The translations under genes and the position numbers were made by a program. 64,000 nt of DNA from Niameybacter massiliensis (GTDB lineage: Bacteria > Bacillota > Clostridia > Lachnospirales > Cellulosilyticaceae): assembly GCF_001282685.1 (NCBI RefSeq), contig NZ_LN875035.1, forward strand, positions 1,319,572 to 1,383,571. Direction: 5' to 3'. Below the pieces are notes generated by a model, which did not search any database, had not been told where the DNA came from, and saw nothing but the letters and a program-made list of their open reading frames with translations. This document shows, in pieces, positions 4,687 through 57,608 of this stretch (position 1 is the stretch's first letter; each line of letters begins with the position of its first letter).

Positions 4687-4762
4687 AAAAAAGCCACTCT
4701 AAAAATCGTCTTTGTACAACATACAAGTAAAAAAGACTATTCTTAGAGTGACTCATTGTGCT
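4687..4762 (-). repeat. Long-stem hairpin repeat, copy 1
   Basis: First of five copies of an approximately 85-bp hairpin (others near 25.8, 29.1, 42.3 and 48.8 kb). Outer arms AAGCCACTCTAAAAAT / ATTCTTAGAGTGACT and inner GTCTTT / AAAGAC enclose a loop. This is the most divergent copy. It starts 2 bp after the response-regulator stop codon and ends in a T-run on the minus strand, so it can act as that gene's terminator. Confidence 0.75.
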
Positions 4763-4763
4763 T

Positions 4764-5492
4764 TTAAAGTATATTTTGTTGCTTTTCTCTATATTCAGTA
4801 GGGTAGCATCCTTCATATTTTTTAAAGATACGAGAAAATATACTTGGATCCTCATATCCTATTTTTTTAGCTAAATCAACAATTTTAATACTAGGGTCCA
4901 TTAAATAAAGTTTTGATATTTCAATACGTCTTTTGTGTATATAAGCTGGAAAAGTTGAGTTTGTATGTTCTTTAAACAACTTGCTAAAATAACTGTAGCT
5001 TAAAGACACATTCTTCGCTACCTCTCCCATGGTAATGTTTCTATGTAGGTTTAAATCAATGTATTCAATAGCCAAAGCTATAATATGCTTATCTGCCCCC
5101 TTTAGCTTATCTATAGGTTTTCCCAACGATAAAGTATCCCCACCCAATTTTGCCTCTAACTCTTTTATATCAACAGGCTTTAGCATATAATCCGTAGCCC
5201 CTAATAAAAAAGCTTTCCTTACATACTCGTAATCATCATATCCACTTAATACAAAAATCTTAGGTAGATTCTCTTTTTTTCTCAGCCTTTCAATAAGTGT
5301 TAATCCACTAAATCCTGGCATTTGAATATCTGTAATTACAATTTCTGGTTGATATTGGTCATATAAGTCTTCTGCTTCTGGTACACTATGGGCTGTTAAA
5401 AACTGATAGTATTGATCATAATGAATTCTTTTTAATTTGCCTATAATGCCTTGGCAAATAACTTTATCGTCATCTACAATTAATAAATACAT
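4764..5492 (-). CDS. Response regulator, AraC-type output (YesN-like)
   Basis: Cytoplasmic transcription factor, 242 residues. Receiver domain about 1-115 with acidic DDD at 7-9, phospho-acceptor Asp55 in VITDIQMPG and conserved Lys105 in MLKPVD; the AraC DNA-binding domain (two helix-turn-helices) covers about 138-240. It is about 10% shorter than usual YesN proteins. It is divergent from its presumed partner kinase with only 50 bp between them. Likely target: the LplABC-like importer and hydrolases of locus A. Pairing and target are inferred from position. Confidence 0.9.
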   Translation of the reverse strand: MYLLIVDDDKVICQGIIGKLKRIHYDQYYQFLTAHSVPEAEDLYDQYQPEIVITDIQMPGFSGLTLIERLRKKENLPKIFVLSGYDDYEYVRKAFLLGATDYMLKPVDIKELEAKLGGDTLSLGKPIDKLKGADKHIIALAIEYIDLNLHRNITMGEVAKNVSLSYSYFSKLFKEHTNSTFPAYIHKRRIEISKLYLMDPSIKIVDLAKKIGYEDPSIFSRIFKKYEGCYPTEYREKQQNIL

Positions 5493-18044: not shown

Positions 18045-21000
18045 TTACTTCATAATGTTATGAATCATTTTTGCAACTTCTGCTCGTTTTGCAACTTGTT
18101 TTGGATTTAATTTACCGCTACTTCCGCCTAAGATATTCTTTTCTACTAAAATAGCCATACTTTCTTTAGCCCAACTACTGATGTAGTCTGTATCTTCGAA
18201 AGCTGCTAAATTATTTTGTTCTATTTCTACTTGTATATCCATTAATTGCATATATTTTACCAGCATACACGCTAGCTGCTCTCGTGTTATCTCTTGATCT
18301 GGTCCAAACAACCCTTCTCCAATACCTTGTGCAATACCCATTTCATTTGCCCAAGCAATATAAGGAGCATAGTATATATCCTCTTGTACGTCTGTAAATA
18401 AAGTATTTTTCTCTACTTCGTCTACATTTGCAAGTCTTCCTAAGACCGTCACAAACATACCTCTTGTCATAGTCATTTCCGGACTAAATGTATCTGTAGC
18501 TGTTCCTCCCATAATATCTCTTGCTACTACAAAATCAATACTTTCTTTTGCCCAGTGATCTCCAATATCTTTAAGTCTCATTTCTCTATATACCACTTCA
18601 TAACTTCCTAGCCCTTCTACTTGAGCTTGGATACTATTATCTTGATAGCTGGATGTTTTTAGTAATTTACTTGATCCAATGGAATCATAGTAATACATAA
18701 CTACATTATTAGGTGATTGACCTTTAGTTAATGTATAAGGAATTGTAATGTGTATGGTTCCTATTCCGTTTATAGCTATCTTTTCTCTCCCTTTACTTAT
18801 TCCTACTATTACTTTATTGCCTTCTAATTGCTGTATTGTAAATGTCACAACCTCTTCCCCAACTTGATCTAAAAGATTATTTATCACTTCCTTATTTAAG
18901 ATAACCTTTCCTATAGAGGTCTCTATTACAAGTTGCGCCTTATCTTTTACGAGGGATTGAAGTTGTTTTTTAGATGTTTGCCACTCAGCTTTATCTGCTT
19001 TCACCTGTGGTCTAACTATAATACTCTCTTTATCTTCTGTGATTTCTACTACCTCAATCTGTGTAGAACTATTTGATGTATTGTTTGTAGATCCACCACT
19101 ACCTGATGAACCACCTGATTCATTTTTCTGCCACTTAGCATACACTGTTACATGAGCCACTACTTCTTTATCAAAGTTATATGCCTCTGTATAACCTTCA
19201 TCTATATACCATCCTATAAATTTATAGCCTTCTCTTATTGGATCTGCCGGCTTAGTCGCCTTTTGACCTTCTAATATCTCTTGTGCTGCTACTTCACTTC
19301 CACCCTTACTATCAAATGTAATACTGTACTTTATATCTTCTCCAACTATAATCTCTTTAGTTACCACACCACTATTTTCCATTCCTTCTTTTACTGCTAT
19401 TGCTTTGATAGTTGCTGTTTTATTAAGTACAATAGCCTCTGTATAGATTAAGCTTGCTTGAGTAGGATCTGAACCATCTAATGTGTAGTAAATAGTTGCA
19501 TCTGGCGTCTGTGTTATCAGCTCAACCTTGCGATACTTATCTGTATCTATGCCACTTACAACAAAGATTGGCTCACTTACATATACTTCTTTTCCAACTA
19601 CAACTTCTTGGCTTACAATAGCACTATCATCCATACCCTCTTTAGTTGCTACTGCCTTAATAACCGTTGTTTGCTCTAATACAATACTCTCATCATACTT
19701 AAGACTTTCTTTTGTAGGCATGCTACCATCTAGTGTATAGTAAATAGTTGCATCTGGTGTCTGTGTTATCAGCTCAACCTTGCGATACTTATCTGTATCT
19801 ATGCCACTTACAACAAAGATTGGCTCACTTACATATACTTCTTTTCCAACTACAACTTCTTGGCTTACAATAGCACTATCATCCATACCCTCTTTAGTTG
19901 CTACTGCCTTAATAACCGTTGTTTGCTCTAATACAATACTCTCATCATACTTAAGACTTTCTTTTGTAGGTATACTACCATCTAGTGTATAGTAGATACT
20001 TGCTCCCTCTGTCTCTGTTTTCAATTCAACAGTTCTCACCCCATCTGTCTCTTTCCCACTTACATGAATACTTGGTGCATTTACTTCATTAGAGATGATA
20101 AATTGAGCCGAAATAGTAACATCTTTTTCTGGCATTTCAAATACTCTACCTTCAATTGCCTCATTGTTGATATAAAGAGATGCAAGTTTATACCCCTCTT
20201 CTGGTTCAACATGCACTAGGATAGATTCCCCTATTGTTGCCTCTGTCTGATCAACTGAAATACTACCATTTATAGGCTGTGTTATATAAACATCATAGGT
20301 CACAGCTTCTTGCGCTTTGAATAGAACTTCAACAGAGACATCCCTTGCTGGCATCTTAAATGTTGTTCCATCTATTTTGCTTCCATTTACCTTTATTTCC
20401 TGAAGCATGTAACCTCTATCAGGCGTAGCGCTTACAGTAATAACATCTCCTTCTTTTGCAATGATTTTAGAAGTTTTAAACGTTCCATTTGTAGCATCCA
20501 ATTTTTCTACACTATAATTATCTTGCATAAACTCCGCTGTAATCGTAACATCTTCATTAGGCATCCTAAAGGCACTACCTATTACCTGCACACCATTTAC
20601 TTTCAGCGAATCTTTTTTGTACTTAAATCCTTCAGTAGGTACTATGTTAAGTACTACCTCCTCACCATATACCTCTGTATCTCGACTTGCTAATACCTTA
20701 CCACCATTTATATCACCTACAGTGATGGTATGACTTGTATGAATTCGTGTTGTGTAAACTTCTGTAGATAATGCTTTAACAGTCCTTGCATCCATGGTTT
20801 CATTAATTGTTACTAATACTGTCGTCTCATCCAACGCTATATGCATGCCATATGGTACGCTACTTTCTGGTAATGTCACTGTATACAATAACTTATTACC
20901 TTCGTCATTAATAGATTTGTAAGTTGCAATAGTATCTGGAGCATCTATTCCCTCAAATGATACTTTTAAAGTACTATTGTTTACATCAGATAGACTCCCT

Positions 21001-24000
21001 AAAACATGTGCTTTGGTTGTTAGTGCTATATCAACAGATGTACCACCCACACACTGCTCATTAATATCAATGGCTGCATCCATTGGCTTATCTACGTTAC
21101 CAAGTATCCTATCCATTGGAATTTCTTCATAATAAGGTTTGACACCATCTGTTTCATAAAGTACGGCAATATCCCCATTGGGTAATTCTGCCAAACATGA
21201 GTATGCATAGGCTGTATTATTTACTTCATAAGTATATCTCCATTCAATATCATATTTATCATAGCCTGTTGCACCAGGATTTTCATGGACTAATCCTACA
21301 TGAATACGTCCCTTTGATCTTTGATTGCTTCCTTTTTCCCCTTCTGGCGCTGAAAGAATAATAGCAGGTTTCCCATCAATTTCTCTTGAATAATTAATAA
21401 CTGATAACTGCACATTACTCGCATACTGGAATCCTTCATCAATACGCATAGGTTCAAATGTAGCCCCACCATCTAAGCTATCTGCATACCCCACATAGTT
21501 GGTATAAGCTGCACTACGTGCATACATACGAATGGTACCATCTGGTAACTCTACAAGTTGTGCTTCACTTGACTTACCTGGACTCTTACCAGGTTCCGTT
21601 GTCATAGTTGTAATGTCACTATGCTTCCATGTCGCTCCTTTATCATCACTATAGATAACACTACTTCTCTCTCCGTAGAGGTCACTATACATTGGGAATA
21701 AAATTCTCCCTGCATATTCTCCTTTTCGAATCACATGCCCTCTTCCAGGTCCTGCAATAAAATAGCGCATCTTATCTGTCTTAAATTCATTAGCAATAAG
21801 CCGTGGCTCATTCCATGTAATACCATTATCATTGCTTGAGCTTAACCACAAGTATGCTACTGGATATAAAATAAAGTCTGCTGTATCATAAAAGATACTC
21901 ATAGGCACGCTTTCACCACTCAAGCTATTATTAGGCCTCTTTTGCTCAACCTCAAGTGGAACACCATCCTTAAATAATTCAAAATAGGCATTAAGTGTGT
22001 AAGCTGTTTTTTGATTATTTTCTATTTCAATTAGTTCATATTTAAGATTCGGATTGGTACTTACAACTGGCTTTATATAGTGCGTCATTTGCACACCACT
22101 TACAATAGGTGTCCCATTAGGGACCAGACCTACATAGTATGTTCCCTCTTCATTATCAGCTACTCTTTCACCTGCTGCATTAATTTTAACCATACCATTG
22201 CCATAAAGTCTGCTATAGTTACCAAAAAGTCCACCACCACTTGGCCATGCATCAGCAAGCATATAAATAATACCTGTCTCTGGATCTTGTACAACTGCTG
22301 GATCGATAAATGATGCACTCTTTGAAGCACTTCCGGAGGCATTCGTATACTCTCCAAAATAATTCACTAATTGAGCCTCTTCCCAAGAACCGTTACGTTT
22401 AAATCGCACACCTGTATCCAAGTTATTAGGAGAGTCAGCTGTACTACCAAAACGAACATCCATAGCTGCCATAATATCACCATTTATTAACTCTGTTAAT
22501 GCAGGTATTCTAAAGTAGTTACTACCAAACTCATCTCCTGCTACAAACGGCTGGTCTGATTCCTTTTCTTCAGCGACTTCTTTTGTTTGACTTGTATAAG
22601 CAATCAATTCTTCATCCGAAAGCGCCGTAGGTACCAAGGTAGCTTCTCCTATTAATCCAGTAAAAGGATATGAGTTACTACCATTACTTCTTGCAGTTCT
22701 CCCTAAGCTCACCGTATCAATATGCGCAAAATCTGATGCCATCTTATACTCTTCTGGTGTCATTTGTTTTTGTACCACTAACTCACCATTTACAAATATC
22801 TTATATGTATAGTCTGTCGCATCAGCTTTAAATGCAAGGGTATTTGCCCCATTAAAACGTAGTGTATTGGCAGTTCCTGAATAGTTCACACCTGCCCCTC
22901 TTAATTCATACCCTATGGTTGAACCATTTACATACACATGAAAATGGTTGTTCGCCTCTTTAGAGTTTGAAAAGCTAAACAAAGATCCAATTCCACTTTT
23001 CCCTTGACTAAATTGCATCTTTAGCGTCATACTATCCAAGAGTTTCACCGTGTCTATAACTGTTTCATCATAATCCTTATATCCGTTGTCTATCATGCCC
23101 TCATTAAATCGAAGTAATGTTTTTTCTTGAATGATTGGTGCATTTAAATCTACTTCTGAATGAATGTCAAAATTAAATGTTTCACCATCACATGTAACAA
23201 CTATTGTATACTTAGTCTGTGGTGGCAGTGCCTCCTTTGTCTTTAACACATTATCTTCAATAACAAAATGCGCATTATCGGCTACGCCCTCTTTTAAGAC
23301 AACACGCTTTCCATCTGTCCCCTGACCTGTAAGTATAAATTCGCCTACTTCTGCACCTATTTTATAAGGTTCAAAGCTTTTCCCATCTAATGTTACCTGA
23401 ATGCAATCATTTTTCCCGGCTAATGTTAATGCATTTGCTTGTTCCACTGTTAGCACTTGATCTGTAATAGTAATTTGTGCAATATCCCCAATCCAATTTT
23501 TATACGCTACACCATTACTATTTGTATCAGTGCCACTTAGCCCCCCAATCTGAATACTATTCATATCTTGATTTCTAGTGAAAAATCCCTTGAATTTTTC
23601 ATCAGCATAATGGCCATTTGCTCCATTTAAAACCGTCTCACCATCTCCACTTGCAAAAATATAACTATCATCAAAGCTAATAGCCATTACATGCCATTGC
23701 CCATCTCCATAATTAACATTCTTTGAATAAGAACTGTATAAGCCATTTGAAAATTCGTAACGTGGCATAATCTCCTTCTCATCATAATAGGCCCCTACTA
23801 ACTGTGCTTTTGTATTTTTAGTTTGGGGTGCTGTGGCTGAGCCAAACCCAATAATAGAATATACACCCTTTTCCGTAATAAGGTCTGGATTTAAACGCGC
23901 CTTAACAATAATCGTCCCTTTAGTCAGCCCCTTTATACTCTCTAAGTCCATAGTTTTATCAATAGTTTTTGTACCATCAAAAATTCGTTCTTCACCATTA

Positions 24001-24785
24001 AGCACATAATCGATAGTAGCATTCTCATACACATCTTCTACTGTTGTAAATACCTTCTCCTCAATACCCTCTTCTTCTGGATAAATTGGCAATAGTTCTG
24101 GTAAATGTTCTTCATCTGGGTAAACAGGTAGCGTTTCTAATTTATGCTCTTCTTCTGGATCAACTGGTAGTGTTTCTAATTCATTCTCTTCTTCTGGATC
24201 AACTGGTAGTGTTTCTAATTCATTTTCTTCTTCTGGATCAACTGGTAGTGTTTCTAATTCATTTTCTTCTTCTGGATCAACTGGTAATGTTTCTAATCCA
24301 TTCTCTTCTTCTGGATCAACTGGTAATGTTTCTAATTCATGCTCTTCTTCTGGATCAACTGGTAATACTTGAGTTTCACTTATAGCGCGAATCTTAAACT
24401 TGAAAACTTCCCCTTCATATACTACCTGTATTATGTAGGCTACACCATTTTCAAGTTTTTCCCTTGTTCTTAATATGTTGTCCTCTATAACAAATAGCTC
24501 ATTATCATATGCGTCTTCGTTTAAGGTAACTCTACTATCTTCCTCTCCTCTCACCTCAAATCGTCCTACTCGGGCACCTTCTTGATCACAGTAGACTGTT
24601 AGATTATCTAGGATTACTGAAGTTATTGTACTCTCTAAAGCATCTTCTTTTTGTGCCATCTCTCCTGGAAGTAATGTCTGAGCTGAATAAGGTAGTGCAT
24701 GAACTGAAATTTGCAAACTACTAGAAATAAGACATGGTACCAATCCTAGTATTGCTAGTTTTTTTGCCATTACTCTATTTTTCAC
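18045..24785 (-). CDS. SLH-anchored multidomain sialidase (GH33-type)
   Basis: Cell-surface sialidase, 2246 residues, starting at GTG behind AAGGAGG. Order: signal peptide (1-30); a cadherin-like domain (about 50-135) repeated at about 456-545; eight 13-residue acidic repeats (about 140-244); LamG/concanavalin-like domain (255-455); a second LamG domain (548-735), as in NanA/NanB-type sialidases; the propeller catalytic domain (about 755-1230) with FRIP near 761 and Asp-boxes S.ND.G.TW, S.D.G.TW and S.DGGATF; three divergent InlB-like repeats (about 1330-1535); three CHB_HEX_C-type modules with YYTLDGS.PT (about 1540-1820); a Listeria-Bacteroides repeat (GYKFIGWY); a Gly/Ser linker; and three SLH domains (about 2060-2246) binding secondary wall polymer. 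It removes terminal sialic acid from host glycans by family knowledge. No sialic acid uptake or nan genes are in the window. Confidence 0.9.
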   Translation of the reverse strand: MKNRVMAKKLAILGLVPCLISSSLQISVHALPYSAQTLLPGEMAQKEDALESTITSVILDNLTVYCDQEGARVGRFEVRGEEDSRVTLNEDAYDNELFVIEDNILRTREKLENGVAYIIQVVYEGEVFKFKIRAISETQVLPVDPEEEHELETLPVDPEEENGLETLPVDPEEENELETLPVDPEEENELETLPVDPEEENELETLPVDPEEEHKLETLPVYPDEEHLPELLPIYPEEEGIEEKVFTTVEDVYENATIDYVLNGEERIFDGTKTIDKTMDLESIKGLTKGTIIVKARLNPDLITEKGVYSIIGFGSATAPQTKNTKAQLVGAYYDEKEIMPRYEFSNGLYSSYSKNVNYGDGQWHVMAISFDDSYIFASGDGETVLNGANGHYADEKFKGFFTRNQDMNSIQIGGLSGTDTNSNGVAYKNWIGDIAQITITDQVLTVEQANALTLAGKNDCIQVTLDGKSFEPYKIGAEVGEFILTGQGTDGKRVVLKEGVADNAHFVIEDNVLKTKEALPPQTKYTIVVTCDGETFNFDIHSEVDLNAPIIQEKTLLRFNEGMIDNGYKDYDETVIDTVKLLDSMTLKMQFSQGKSGIGSLFSFSNSKEANNHFHVYVNGSTIGYELRGAGVNYSGTANTLRFNGANTLAFKADATDYTYKIFVNGELVVQKQMTPEEYKMASDFAHIDTVSLGRTARSNGSNSYPFTGLIGEATLVPTALSDEELIAYTSQTKEVAEEKESDQPFVAGDEFGSNYFRIPALTELINGDIMAAMDVRFGSTADSPNNLDTGVRFKRNGSWEEAQLVNYFGEYTNASGSASKSASFIDPAVVQDPETGIIYMLADAWPSGGGLFGNYSRLYGNGMVKINAAGERVADNEEGTYYVGLVPNGTPIVSGVQMTHYIKPVVSTNPNLKYELIEIENNQKTAYTLNAYFELFKDGVPLEVEQKRPNNSLSGESVPMSIFYDTADFILYPVAYLWLSSSNDNGITWNEPRLIANEFKTDKMRYFIAGPGRGHVIRKGEYAGRILFPMYSDLYGERSSVIYSDDKGATWKHSDITTMTTEPGKSPGKSSEAQLVELPDGTIRMYARSAAYTNYVGYADSLDGGATFEPMRIDEGFQYASNVQLSVINYSREIDGKPAIILSAPEGEKGSNQRSKGRIHVGLVHENPGATGYDKYDIEWRYTYEVNNTAYAYSCLAELPNGDIAVLYETDGVKPYYEEIPMDRILGNVDKPMDAAIDINEQCVGGTSVDIALTTKAHVLGSLSDVNNSTLKVSFEGIDAPDTIATYKSINDEGNKLLYTVTLPESSVPYGMHIALDETTVLVTINETMDARTVKALSTEVYTTRIHTSHTITVGDINGGKVLASRDTEVYGEEVVLNIVPTEGFKYKKDSLKVNGVQVIGSAFRMPNEDVTITAEFMQDNYSVEKLDATNGTFKTSKIIAKEGDVITVSATPDRGYMLQEIKVNGSKIDGTTFKMPARDVSVEVLFKAQEAVTYDVYITQPINGSISVDQTEATIGESILVHVEPEEGYKLASLYINNEAIEGRVFEMPEKDVTISAQFIISNEVNAPSIHVSGKETDGVRTVELKTETEGASIYYTLDGSIPTKESLKYDESIVLEQTTVIKAVATKEGMDDSAIVSQEVVVGKEVYVSEPIFVVSGIDTDKYRKVELITQTPDATIYYTLDGSMPTKESLKYDESIVLEQTTVIKAVATKEGMDDSAIVSQEVVVGKEVYVSEPIFVVSGIDTDKYRKVELITQTPDATIYYTLDGSDPTQASLIYTEAIVLNKTATIKAIAVKEGMENSGVVTKEIIVGEDIKYSITFDSKGGSEVAAQEILEGQKATKPADPIREGYKFIGWYIDEGYTEAYNFDKEVVAHVTVYAKWQKNESGGSSGSGGSTNNTSNSSTQIEVVEITEDKESIIVRPQVKADKAEWQTSKKQLQSLVKDKAQLVIETSIGKVILNKEVINNLLDQVGEEVVTFTIQQLEGNKVIVGISKGREKIAINGIGTIHITIPYTLTKGQSPNNVVMYYYDSIGSSKLLKTSSYQDNSIQAQVEGLGSYEVVYREMRLKDIGDHWAKESIDFVVARDIMGGTATDTFSPEMTMTRGMFVTVLGRLANVDEVEKNTLFTDVQEDIYYAPYIAWANEMGIAQGIGEGLFGPDQEITREQLACMLVKYMQLMDIQVEIEQNNLAAFEDTDYISSWAKESMAILVEKNILGGSSGKLNPKQVAKRAEVAKMIHNIMK
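19509..19995 (-). repeat. 252-bp tandem duplication inside the sialidase gene
   Basis: 19509-19760 and 19761-19995 are nearly identical at the DNA level (period 252 bp, 84 codons) with only a few differences, duplicating one CHB_HEX_C-type module. A third, diverged module lies further toward the C-terminus. The near-identity indicates a recent duplication or ongoing homogenisation. Confidence 0.92.
24054..24368 (-). repeat. 39-bp coding tandem repeats in the sialidase gene
   Basis: Eight units of 39 bp encode LPVDPEEENELET-like acidic, proline-containing repeats near residues 140-244; the central units are almost identical and the outer ones degenerate. Probably a flexible spacer between surface domains and prone to copy-number change. 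Confidence 0.92.
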
Positions 24786-25140: not shown

Positions 25141-25265
25141 TTAAATGACACGTAAAACTAAACATGTCCTAAGCTGTTGCTTCTCATCTTGTGCTTCTTC
25201 TTTCTTCTTATAAATACTAAAGTAATCAATTAAAGCTTCTTTCAGGTAAATGCCTCTATCTCTTA
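25141..25265 (-). pseudogene. Relic of the GH16 gene (3' end fused to an internal piece)
   Basis: 25141-25197 matches 29290-29346 (the 3' end of the GH16 gene) and 25193-25265 matches 29921-29993 of the same gene, both ungapped and close to 90% identical. The join lies in a shared TGCTTC, and 579 bp (exactly 193 codons) are missing between, so the fragment looks like a duplicate that lost an in-frame segment by microhomology deletion. No 5' part, start codon or ribosome site. Confidence 0.85.
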
Positions 25266-25316
25266 CCTAACTTTTTATAAATTTTTTCAACTTTTTTGCA
25301 AAGTTTGGGAGATTTT

Positions 25317-25344
25317 TTGAAAAATCCGTGTATAAGTATATATA
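25317..25344 (+). promoter_or_regulatory. Promoter-like sequence before the candidate structured RNA
   Basis: TTGAAA (25317-25322), a 16-bp spacer and TATATA (25339-25344), plus strand, lying just upstream of the G+C-richer region that ends in an intrinsic terminator 540 bp later. Confidence 0.4.
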
Positions 25345-25889
25345 AGGTAAATTAAATTACCTTATACGGTATCTAATGGGACAAGTCCTAGGCCCCTTGA
25401 ATCTAAGATCCCTCTCTAAGATGAGTAAGTAACTTAAGTCCTCCTCCTCCCTAGACTTAAATGATACTCCTCTTCTTAGAATCCAGCCCTGTAGGTGGTG
25501 GCAACCACAGAACGCTGGTTACATCTATAACTAAATAGTGACTTCCACCTTTTTAAATCCTTAGACACCCTCTAAGCATGTAAACCCTTAGGAACGTATG
25601 AGGTAAACCCAGCGTACAAGCAACTAGCCTTGGACACCTGGCATGATAAATCCAATTAGGATCCCTTTCACTGCAGGCACACCAAAGCAGTTCGCCTGTA
25701 GCCTGGTAAATCCAAGAGGACTTTGCTAATGGTATCTTTGCTTAGAATATACACTCAGGACTACTCTAGGAAGTTGCTTATAAGTTATAATCTTTGCCAC
25801 AAAATAATAAGCCACCTTAATTTCAGTCTTTGTGCTACGCATAGGGAGGAAAAGACTGTTATTAGGGTGGCTTATTGTGCTTTTTAATG
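25345..25889 (+). ncRNA. Candidate large structured RNA, about 540 nt, unidentified
   Basis: A gene-free segment clearly richer in G+C than the intergenic DNA around it, with many local complementary arms: ATAAGGTAA/TTACCTTAT (25342-25365); a long interrupted hairpin 25411-25481 (TCTAAGA/TCTTAGA, GAGTA/TACTC, TTAAGTC/GACTTAA); GGTGG/CCACC enclosing AACCA/TGGTT (25490-25550); CTTAGA/TCTAAG (25560-25580); CAGGC/GCCTG (25674-25697); and the long terminal hairpin 25798-25883 followed by CTTTTT. The apical loop at 25450-25459 (CCTCCCTA) is complementary to the loop of the terminal hairpin (TAGGGAGG). Plus strand is preferred because of the promoter-like sequence and U-run, but the other strand is possible. 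I do not recognise a known class; size is in the range of OLE, ROOL and GOLLD RNAs. Parts recur near 42.2 and 48.7 kb. Confidence 0.5.
25798..25883. repeat. Long-stem hairpin repeat, copy 2
   Basis: Outer arms AATAAGCCACCTTAAT / ATTAGGGTGGCTTATT, inner CAGTCTTT / AAAAGACTG, apical loop with ATAGGGAGGA; CACA/TGTG extends the stem and CTTTTT follows on the plus strand. It lies 90 bp 3' of the hypothetical gene on the minus strand and forms the end of the candidate structured RNA. Confidence 0.85.
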
Positions 25890-25973
25890 AATTTATTTAA
25901 TCTTTAAAACCCTCGAACTAACTGATATGATGAGATTCTATTTTGATGTTTTTATACTTCAGCCATTATTCTC

Positions 25974-26534
25974 TTATACATATAGACTGATACCACCTGG
26001 GGCTTTATTTAACTTATCTAGCATATTAATTACTACTGTATTTTCTTTTAGATTTTTAAGTTTTTCATTATCCATATCATCTGATATTGGATAATCTACT
26101 TTTTGTTTGTTTTCAAGTTTTTTTCTTTCTTCCTCTACTTCTTCTATATAATCAATCAATGTTTTTTGTGCATTTTTCATCATCGCTTTTTCTTGTTCTG
26201 AAAGTTCACATTCAAAACGTTGTCCATTCACAACAATCCATCTTTTATTTTCATCTTTACCTAGTTCTTCCCAAGTTACTTCTCCACTATAAGTTGTATA
26301 ATTTGCAATTTTATCAAACGTACTTCGATCCACTTGAATTGTAGTATGTGCTGCAGTACCCTTATCCAGACTTGATGGCATTTTTACTTTTGTGGTCATC
26401 TGTGATATATATGTATCTCTATCTTTTACTGGGAATTTTTTATCTTGATTTTGCTGTGGCATTCCCTGTCCTACCTGTTTTTTTGTCATCATAGCTGCCA
26501 TTTTATCATATGAACCTACTATTCTCATACTCAT
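25974..26534 (-). CDS. Hypothetical protein, 186 residues
   Basis: Not recognised. Good ribosome site (GGAGGTATGATAT) before ATG 26534. The protein is hydrophilic with no signal peptide or membrane segment: a methionine/glutamine-rich N-terminus (about 10-32), a central part (about 60-105) with YSGEVTWEELGKDENKRWI-like sequence, and a charged helical region (about 110-145, EEVEEERKKLENKQK) likely to form a coiled coil. It sits alone in the scrambled region between the candidate RNA and gene relics. The AT-rich codon use matches its neighbours, so I treat it as a real native gene of unknown function. Confidence 0.7.
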   Translation of the reverse strand: MSMRIVGSYDKMAAMMTKKQVGQGMPQQNQDKKFPVKDRDTYISQMTTKVKMPSSLDKGTAAHTTIQVDRSTFDKIANYTTYSGEVTWEELGKDENKRWIVVNGQRFECELSEQEKAMMKNAQKTLIDYIEEVEEERKKLENKQKVDYPISDDMDNEKLKNLKENTVVINMLDKLNKAPGGISLYV

Positions 26535-27510: not shown

Positions 27511-27555
27511 TATTATATAATAATATTAAATAATAGTAAAATACCATAAGCACAA

Positions 27556-27614
27556 ACAAAGCCAACCTAAGTTGCCTCCCCTCCAAAATCCTAGACAAAC
27601 TTAAGTTGGCTTTA
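27556..27614. terminator. Hairpin downstream of the fliB region
   Basis: AAAGCCAACCTAAGTT and AACTTAAGTTGGCTTT form an imperfect 16-bp stem; the loop on the minus strand contains GGAGGGGAGG, resembling the purine-rich loop inside the candidate RNA near 25450. Confidence 0.6.
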
Positions 27615-27837
27615 TTAGTAATATCTTGTTACAGGATTCTTAGTGAAACTTCATCCACTATGCTTGTGTGTAATAAGTTAATTTGTCCCTTCCTATCCGG
27701 TTCTCATCCTTACGAAAGCGCCTGGTAGCCCTGCCGTTGAAGAGGTCGCAGTGACTTTGCACCATTATTCGTCTGACCACTTGTAACACCTAAGACGTAC
27801 TATCCGTTCATTTAAAACTTCTTACATTATAAGCTTG
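27615..27837. other. G+C-rich unexplained segment, possibly structured RNA or mobile-element end
   Basis: No ORF. The core 27698-27770 is markedly richer in G+C than its flanks, with CCGGTTCTCATCC, GCGCCTGGTAGCCCTGCC and GGTCGCAGTGACTTTGCACC. In an AT-rich genome this composition usually marks a structured RNA or the non-coding end of an insertion sequence (for example IS110 or IS200/IS605 types). I cannot decide which. Confidence 0.35.
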
Positions 27838-27865
27838 TATTTTTCATTTCAATCATATCGCCATA
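27838..27865 (-). repeat. 28-bp near-copy of the SDR gene 3' end
   Basis: 27 of 28 bases match 15234-15261 (last codons of the SDR gene), same orientation, immediately 3' of the fliB stop codon. Confidence 0.7.
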
Positions 27866-29043: not shown

Positions 29044-29132
29044 ACTCTCTCTATCAATTATTATTTTATTTTAATATTTATTGGTTGTAACATCAAGTGT
29101 GGTATCTTTAATCGTATACAGCTAGAAATTCC

Positions 29133-29218
29133 ACAAAATAATAAGCCACCTTAATTTCAGTCTTTGCATAACGCATAGGGGGAACAGACTGTTATTAGGG
29201 TGGCTTATTGTGCTTTTA
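29133..29218. repeat. Long-stem hairpin repeat, copy 3
   Basis: Almost the same as copy 2: outer arms AATAAGCCACCTTAAT / ATTAGGGTGGCTTATT, inner CAGTCTTT / AACAGACTG, loop ATGCGTTATGC-like on the minus strand. It lies 72 bp 3' of the GH16 gene stop and probably ends the locus B operon. Confidence 0.85.
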
Positions 29219-41920: not shown

Positions 41921-42194
41921 TTATTCTAAATATCTCTTTATAAATATCTTTTTTCAATATACTCCACCTCGCTCAAAACACACTATACATTACTCTTATT
42001 TTTCTTACTTATTAAATAAATATTTTCTTCCTATACTTTATTGCATTCATTAAACATACTATCATCCCTAAGCCTAGTATGTCCAATCAACTAGAAGGCA
42101 AAAGCATATACATCCAAAACCTTTAACAAACTCTTTTAACTTTTTTCTTTATTTTTAAGTATTTAGAAAAATTTAAGAAGAATTCACTAATAAC

Positions 42195-42346
42195 AACTTG
42201 GCTTAGAACATAGATAGGGTACTACTCTAGGAAGCGGCTTATAAGTTATATCCTTGTCACAAAATAATAAGCCACTCTAATAACAGTCTTTGTGCAATGC
42301 ACAAGGGGAAAAGACTGCTATTAGAATGGCTTATTATACTTTTAGA
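42195..42346. repeat. Long-stem hairpin repeat, copy 4, with left extension
   Basis: Hairpin 42265-42339 has arms AATAAGCCACTCTAATAACAGTCTTT / AAAGACTGCTATTAG... with coordinated changes relative to copy 2 (each arm shown in part). The left extension 42195-42264 (CTTAGAA, ACTACTCTAGGAAG, GCTTATAAGTTATA) matches 25741-25798. It lies 6 bp 3' of the Gfo/Idh stop codon. The rest of the 41940-42195 gap is AT-rich with nothing recognised. Confidence 0.85.
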
Positions 42347-48714: not shown

Positions 48715-48878
48715 TACAGGAACACCAAAGTAGCTCGTCTGTAACTTGGTAACTCCACTAGGACTTCACTTATCAGTTATAATTTTTATCATAAAATAAT
48801 AAGCCACCTTAATAATGGTCTTTCCGAAAACGTATAGGGAGGAAAGGACCATCGTTAAGGTGACTTGTTGTGTTTTTT
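48715..48878. repeat. Long-stem hairpin repeat, copy 5, with left extension
   Basis: Hairpin 48797-48873: outer AATAAGCCACCTTAATAATGG / CCATCGTTAAGGTGACTTGTT and inner GTCTTTCC / GGAAAGGAC. The C-A to T-G changes on both arms relative to copy 2 preserve pairing. The left extension 48718-48770 (CACCAAAGTAGCTCGTCTGTAACTTGGTAA-type, shown in part) matches 25677-25725 of the candidate RNA. It fills the gap between the SGNH and MATE genes and lies about 100 bp 3' of the MATE stop. Confidence 0.85.
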
Positions 48879-48978
48879 ATCTACAGATTAAATTGTGTTT
48901 AAATTGTTAAGTACCTGGTATATTAGTAAAGGCACAGCCTTGACTTGTTACGAATAGCAATCTTATTACCTATTTCTT

Positions 48979-57201: not shown

Positions 57202-57261
57202 CTTAAAACTCCAAAATCCTCGAAACACTCTTTTATCAGAGTATTTCGAGGATTTAGTTCA
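57202..57261 (-). terminator. tmRNA terminator, family 2 copy d
   Basis: Minus strand: AATCCTCGAAATACTC and the arm ending GTGTTTCGAGGATTTT form a long stem, starting 9 nt after the tmRNA 3' end. Its sequence ends are repeated at 55162-55225. Confidence 0.85.
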
Positions 57262-57608
57262 TGGAGGTGAGGGGAATCGAACCCCTGTCCGAAAGCCCGT
57301 ATATTGTGGTCTCTACCATCATAGTCACTGTTTTAACATTCCCTCCATGAACCGCCCAGAGACAGGCTGTTCACTTCAGTAGCTTCATGGTTACGGCATT
57401 GTGGGCAAAGCTTAGCACAAGTCGTTCCCCGCTGAGTCGGAGTCTCGTTCTAGGCTGCGGGTGACCTAGAGGAGACTAGCAGCATTAAGCTGCTAATGCA
57501 AAATTATTATCTGCGTTTAATTTAAATGCCAGCTTTTAACGTAGACTCCGGCGTTCTACGGATGGCTGCCCCGACATACGTGACCCCCGTCGAAACCAGT
57601 GCACCCCC
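57262..57608 (-). ncRNA. ssrA: tmRNA (transfer-messenger RNA)
   Basis: Frees stalled ribosomes by trans-translation, with SmpB. The 5' end GGGGGTG pairs with the 3' end CACCTCC-A to form the acceptor stem; the T-arm is GGTTCGATTCC and the D-like part is CTGGTTTCGACGGGGG. The tag reading frame (57485-57529) encodes AFKLNADNNFALAA and a stop, ending in the expected ALAA. About 347 nt. smpB lies directly upstream on the same strand. The single-stranded CCA end is not fully encoded beyond CCA as read (the gene ends TCCA). Confidence 0.96.

Follow-up and report, generated by a model that had tools for sequence, protein, structure and literature searches.

A large structured RNA family with at least 26 diverged copies in Niameybacter massiliensis, partly associated with a putative alternative sigma factor regulon

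Positions 25317-25889 of the window analysed here, a stretch of 64,000 nt from the genome of Niameybacter massiliensis, form a compactly folding block between two genes, and the question is what this block encodes. The first-pass annotation had proposed a large unidentified structured RNA forming its own unit. This was right but understated: the proposal is supported by the absence of an Rfam match and by covarying homologues, transcript data being absent, and the block turned out to be one copy of a family of at least 26. The neighbouring genes both lie on the reverse strand, a sialidase-like S-layer gene starting at 24785 on the left and a short gene ending at 25974 on the right. These limits and a longest forward-strand ORF of only 54 aa confirm that the block is gene-free. 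The sialidase-like S-layer protein (18045-24785) carries a tandem LPVDPEEENELET repeat near its N terminus (window 24086-24385). Upon comparison with dinucleotide shuffles, the two strands of the block gave z values of -5.3 and -5.4. Both strands thus fold far better than shuffled sequence, which leaves the strand undecided on folding alone; it had been no more than an inference and was now set as forward by comparison of the homologues.

No family of Rfam 15 matched the block at gathering thresholds, and a cmscan run with permissive E-values (up to E = 10 for the window block) on 25250-25950 and on six of the other copies gave chance matches only. The Rfam models of OLE, ROOL and GOLLD did not reach their gathering threshold in the window copy or the other copies tested. 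The sole gathering match of the window is a tmRNA gene (57259-57608, reverse strand), and further copies searched at this threshold gave no match for the RNA, only neighbouring tmRNA and RNase P genes. Group I and II introns, HEARO, tmRNA, RNase P and other Rfam ribozymes were rejected as identities for lack of a model match. Circularly permuted group II introns were also rejected, there being no Rfam intron match and no mention of related taxa in PMC8637638.

BLASTN against the own genome (4.57 Mb, 11 contigs) retrieved seven full-length copies, the window copy and six others at 73-87% identity, plus several fragments. When correctly oriented, these copies (C1-C7) can be aligned along their full length. 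Two highly diverged copies were detected with a covariance model of the core (R1), and the count was raised to at least 26 full-length members by BLASTN with one diverged copy, a promoter-motif search and a second covariance model built on the 3' end (R2). One member, D8, was detected through the promoter motif alone. The members have a length of about 490-560 nt and, like some eight truncated remnants, all reside in one genome. They were divided into five subfamilies, which share the same architecture at an average identity to one another of 40-47% (about 45%):

Subfamily C: C1, C2, C3, C4, C5, C6, C7
Subfamily D: D3, D3b, D4, D5, D8, N4, N8
Subfamily A: D1, D2
Subfamily N: N1, N2, N3, N5, N6, N9
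Subfamily T: D7, N7, N10, N12

Candidates N14-N18 of the same genome were rejected as members, being plain terminators. Two sets of neighbours were recorded by the way. An MNT/HEPN-like gene pair, identified by eye, directly adjoins copy C3 (L014:10374-11127), and another genome, G008, has one like it close to a replication-like gene (L093). A gene with collagen-like GQDGQN repeats (L027:1880-2678) is located just downstream of copy D1 at a contig end.

The features of the window copy, all on the forward strand, are as follows.

25317-25889, +: full-length RNA element, family copy C1 (BLASTN, alignment, covariance model hits)
25308-25336, +: promoter region (GGAGATTTT ... GTGTATAAG), diverged C-type form common to C1 and C2 (alignment)
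25341-25366, +: P1, 5' hairpin (AUAAGGUAA...UUACCUUAU) (RNAalifold)
25368-25411, +: P2 stem-loop with the palindrome CCUAGG in its loop, 25387-25392 (RNAalifold)
25416-25479, +: P3 stem-loop with a C-rich loop (alignment, RNAalifold)
25445-25453, +: 5' strand of PK1 (UCCUCCCUA), partner 25842-25850 (covariation)
25483-25518, +: P4 stem-loop, its loop GUGGCAA (25498-25504) being the 5' strand of PK2 (RNAalifold, covariation)
25526-25532, +: 5' strand of the long-range stem P5, partner 25783-25789 (RNAalifold)
25540-25546, +: 5' strand of P6, partner 25769-25775 (RNAalifold)
25637-25677, +: core hairpin with a conserved internal loop (GUGAUAA-type / CCCUUUCA), stem sequence varying by subfamily
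25794-25800, +: 3' strand of PK2 (UUGCCAC), partner 25498-25504 (covariation)
25804-25878, +: P9, long 3' hairpin (covariation)
25842-25850, +: 3' strand of PK1 (UAGGGAGGA), within the P9 loop (covariation)

RNAalifold predicted 145 pairs in the alignment of C1-C7, 34 of which change on both sides. In the fold, a multi-branched domain closed by long-range pairing includes the hairpin with the conserved internal loop, and two long-range pseudoknots lock the structure, PK1 between the P3 and P9 loops and PK2 between the P4 loop and the joining strand before P9. Covariation was assessed by comparing the pairing energy of strands from the same RNA with that of strands swapped between RNAs (26 members, 20,000 permutations). 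The arms of P4 (z -11.9; 0/20,000) and P9 (z -11.3; 0/20,000) gave the strongest values, with PK1 at z -7.0 (0/20,000) and PK2 at z -3.9 (2/20,000). For 20 representatives, the corresponding counts for P4, P9, PK1 and PK2 were 0, 0, 0 and 7 of 20,000. The loops were hand-picked in this test and shared ancestry inflates its significance; that both strands differ from one subfamily to another is plainly visible in the sequences themselves. PK1 comprises about 7-15 bp, as illustrated by UCCUCCCUA/UAGGGAGGA in C1 and CCUCCCUUAU/AUAAGGGAGG in D2. The support for PK2 is weaker because this pairing varies little, GUGGCAA/UUGCCAC being replaced by GGUGACA/UGUCACC in the T subfamily. In the Infernal alignment of P9, 97.1% of the cells were paired; column shuffles reached 83% and slid controls 25-58%, and 12 of the 17 pairs changed on both sides. 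This alignment was fitted to the model's own structure, which favours high pairing. The many compensatory changes sought among homologues are therefore present, among paralogues of the same genome, and there is hardly any room for doubt that the block belongs to a family of large structured non-coding RNAs encoded on the forward strand.

The C-rich loop of P3 suggests what is the main rival to the reading developed below, a family of trans-acting regulatory sRNAs. The loop (UCCUCCC) would leave PK1 and pair with the Shine-Dalgarno sequence of targets specific to each paralogue. C-rich loops are an established feature of sRNAs in Gram-positive bacteria, the loop is complementary to GGAGG in all members, the P9 loop resembles a Shine-Dalgarno sequence (GGGAGGA), and many copies are solitary units with subfamily-specific promoters. 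Against this, covariation ties the C-rich loop to the P9 loop within each RNA, so that its conserved role lies inside the molecule (or between copies of one RNA), and a length of 500 nt with two pseudoknots goes far beyond what an sRNA needs. Regulation through Shine-Dalgarno binding is considered unlikely, without being excluded.

At the 3' end, the hairpin noticed in the first-pass annotation is real and highly conserved, whereas the CTTTTT that follows it is unique to the window copy; other copies carry TTTTA, TTATA, CTCTA and the like in the alignment. Given this variation, conservation within the family does not extend to a classical U-run terminator. P9 by itself also persists as a hairpin near gene ends. 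All of the approximately eight truncated remnants retain the 3' hairpin, and five are located in the window:

4688-4768, +: decayed remnant, 3' hairpin only (BLASTN)
27553-27860, -: T-subfamily remnant (N11) lacking the 5' part, with its hairpin at 27553-27631 and an approximate upper limit (covariance model R2)
29131-29217, +: remnant, 3' hairpin only (BLASTN)
42169-42343, +: 5'-truncated remnant (BLASTN)
48752-48879, +: remnant with an internal deletion and a 5' truncation (BLASTN)

The remnants found by BLASTN always kept the 3' end, and none consisted of the 5' end only. In another remnant (p8, L014 11230-11373), about 170 nt are missing between two CTAGCT repeats. This pattern, together with the dispersed copies, the tandem pairs and the confinement to one lineage, would suit a mobile or selfish element, retroelement- or MITE-like, of which the RNA is the transposition intermediate. 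No target-site duplications were found, however (own flanks 7.08 versus 6.90 for swapped flanks, sd 0.19), and the copies were not seen to be accompanied by terminal inverted repeats, a reverse transcriptase or a transposase. At an identity of about 45%, i.e. 55% divergence, the subfamilies have moreover retained a covarying structure and promoters of their own, and the preserved 3' hairpin can be explained by its capacity to act as a terminator for adjoining convergent genes. A mobile element is thus an improbable explanation, more so than a regulatory sRNA.

A conserved element marks the 5' end of every RNA of the family. In the window copy this is not the TTGAAA/TATATA pair previously read as a promoter, in which the spacing is about 14 and which a consensus scan missed; a simple scan of the window for promoters and terminators detected neither of the two signals named in the first-pass annotation. 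The promoter of C3-C7 reads GACGAATT-N15-YGTATGTATA. Across the genome, GACKAAW-N16-GTATGTAT has seven exact sites, five of them before RNAs, one before a replication-like gene and one before the DUF1659 operon of the module beside C4. One mismatch added a single match, and a reversed control gave five in total at no more than one mismatch. C1 and C2 lack the exact C-type motif, and since their version has diverged, both the activity of the window copy's promoter and its use by the sigma factor beside C4 are inferred only. Four exact matches to the D-type motif GGAAW-N14-TGTATATAT were found, before the RNAs D3 and D4, the replication-like gene adjacent to D3 and a polysaccharide-deacetylase-like gene. 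One mismatch adds the RNAs D3b and D8 and the DUF1659 operon beside D3; as the control then matches equally often, only such sites in a fitting place were counted. The polysaccharide-deacetylase-like gene, named from its sequence (L116; G000:C9:34795, reverse strand), is a possible further member of the regulon. A sigma-A-like box, TTGACW-N17-TATAWT, is common to D1 and D2, and subfamilies A, N and T in general have other promoters, those of A and T being partly sigma-A-like.

The C- and D-type promoters recur in gene modules beside some of the copies. The earlier statement that no phage gene accompanies the RNA holds for the window copy and fails for the family, as the RNA at four sibling loci (C4, D3, D3b and D4) is part of, or adjoins, a module that comprises an alternative sigma factor, a replication-initiation-like gene or an endolysin, or several of these. 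It counts against a general link that the module association is limited to these four of the 26 loci, most copies being solitary. On one side of C4 (L015), D3 (L050) and D3b (L051), an alternative sigma factor (Sigma70 region 2; TIGR02937), DUF1659 and DUF2922 are encoded, with YvrJ added at L015 and L050. On the other side of these three RNAs is a protein with PHROG replication-initiation/DnaD-like matches. The replication-like gene precedes the RNA, and an Amidase_2 endolysin follows it in C4, D3 and D4. The sigma module is duplicated in the genome (L050 and L051), with 87% identity between the replication-like proteins and 71% between the sigma factors, and an Rrf2-like regulator takes the place of the L050 endolysin at L051. 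The replication-like protein has only weak matches, to a Marinitoga virus, and no viral matches were found for the sigma factor. There are thus two modules and two promoter variants, each variant common to the matching RNA subfamily. On these motif matches, without data on binding of sigma factors to the promoters, subfamilies C and D are very probably members of an alternative-sigma regulon.

A related motif, GGGAW-N13-RACATATRT, has 13 matches in five genomes of other genera of the same family and none in the reversed control. It is found in front of replication-like genes, DUF1659-DUF2922-YvrJ operons and a phage holin gene, and in one of these genomes, G019, in front of a non-coding stretch. 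The regulon is therefore probably older than the species, and the RNA family was not recognised outside it; no RNA was seen beside the replication-like genes of the relatives. The G019 stretch (L103:1501-1845; C57:44218) is about 310 nt long, folds with a z of -7.2, ends in a terminator-like hairpin of 22 bp and is possibly an analogous or very distant RNA. In the same genome (L111:1501-2997), the regulon-type promoter stands before a Phage_holin_4_1 gene and an unidentified second gene, an arrangement that resembles a lysis pair.

The amidase gene of C4, D3 and D4 starts 25-65 nt downstream of the RNA and has the same orientation. The RNA could for this reason be a cis-acting leader (attenuator) of the endolysin gene, with the solitary copies as decoys. 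An amidase follows only three of the 26 copies, though, and the next gene is convergent for some 16 of them, which makes a leader very unlikely. A coding relic, an IS relic or a simple convergent-terminator repeat, to which the lone P9 hairpins near gene ends might point, can practically be dismissed, and is ruled out for the full-length members by covariation spanning the whole element, while the search for relics yielded no ORF conserved across members (one common to C4 and C5 is broken elsewhere by 1-nt indels), no transposase and no target-site duplication.

Outside the genome no member was found. BLASTN in relatives gave no match to the RNA, nor did R1 and a core pattern in 391 other genomes of the order. 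R2 found only plain terminator hairpins among the inspected matches in 390 other genomes of the class; these samples partly overlap, so that fewer than 781 different genomes were covered. The best-scoring R2 matches, in relatives and in genome G588, were rejected as plain terminator hairpins without the pseudoknot loops. Phage, plasmid and viral collections contained no DNA match, and a phage or plasmid origin was set aside as far as sequence can tell. In 84,980 species genomes, the exact C-type core pattern met nine chance stretches, none of which the covariance model accepted. These searches would miss members much more diverged than subfamilies A, D, N and T, and the large sets were strictly filtered. 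A literature search found no description of the regulon or of the RNA.

The loop of P2 contains a palindrome in 24 of the 26 members, CCUAGG in most, UCUAGA in five and GGUGGCCACC in two; it is imperfect in D4 and N4. Since 19% of shuffled loops also reach six palindromic bases, and the loops were located by these motifs, weight is given to the switching from one palindrome to another rather than to any single one. Palindrome switching served to identify loops L9.3 of OLE and L21a of GOLLD as sites where two RNA chains meet symmetrically (PMC12286853). The palindromic loop, the size, the pseudoknots and the phage-type gene setting together suggest a self-associating RNA resembling GOLLD and OLE, without membership of either. 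With GOLLD it shares the multiple pseudoknots of a large bacterial RNA, the phage-type setting and, with less certainty, a palindromic loop of a type for which kissing between chains has been shown (PMC12286853). It differs in having no covariance model match and a length of 490-560 nt where GOLLD often exceeds 800 nt, in its at least 26 diverged paralogues within a single genome, in its sigma-module promoters and in having no noticeable tRNA island. OLE is similar in size (about 600 nt) and in its occurrence in Bacillota, and the P2 loop may correspond to the symmetric palindromic kissing loop of its dimer, but the new RNA has no match to its model, no recognisable OLE-associated gene beside it, many paralogues, and different stems and loops. 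ROOL is likewise a large ornate RNA with a phage-type association and conserved kissing loops; here again there is no model match, the motifs differ, and the new RNA is multicopy and chromosomal. The sRNAs of Gram-positive bacteria share the UCCUCCC loop, which in the new RNA covaries with a G-rich loop of the same, far larger and more complex molecule.

The block would accordingly be described as the gene for a trans-acting structured RNA of about 490-560 nt on the forward strand, one of at least 26 paralogues. Two of the five subfamilies would be transcribed by dedicated alternative sigma factors, alongside a replication-initiation-like protein and DUF1659-DUF2922-YvrJ operons, and the endolysin would be joined to the same programme by its position. 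Through the P2 loop the RNA may form homodimers or larger assemblies, and it may act as a structural RNA in a domesticated phage-like replication and lysis programme, comparable to GOLLD. The parts of this reading differ in strength. The criterion for a large ornate RNA, a long RNA with covarying stems and pseudoknots, is met, and a new, previously undescribed family is as good as shown as far as a structured RNA family is concerned. Self-association through P2, homo-oligomers included, is inferred by analogy and has slightly less than an even chance. A role in a lysis-type programme is tentative, the function being unmeasured. Taken as a whole, a new class of self-associating ornate RNA, partly within a phage-like sigma/lysis regulon, is still the best explanation and somewhat probable, with the function inferred and no transcript measured. 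The boldest version, doubtful at present, is that a cell holds about 26 self-assembling RNA species which recognise their own kind through palindromic and matched pseudoknot loops, with separate sigma factors per subfamily, in a domesticated phage replication and lysis programme.

To our knowledge, no agreed biochemical function exists for the large ornate RNAs OLE, GOLLD and ROOL. We know of no such RNA present at dozens of diverged copies per genome, and of no described RNA class that combines this number of paralogues with coupling to sigma factors. The unexplained DUF1659-DUF2922-YvrJ proteins become linked to a putative sigma regulon that includes a phage holin in relatives. The family offers natural variation within a single cell and two candidate handles for sigma-controlled induction, and the adjacent genes, for the replication-like protein, the endolysin and DUF1659/DUF2922/YvrJ, point to a process, by which the purpose of giant RNAs becomes testable by genetics.
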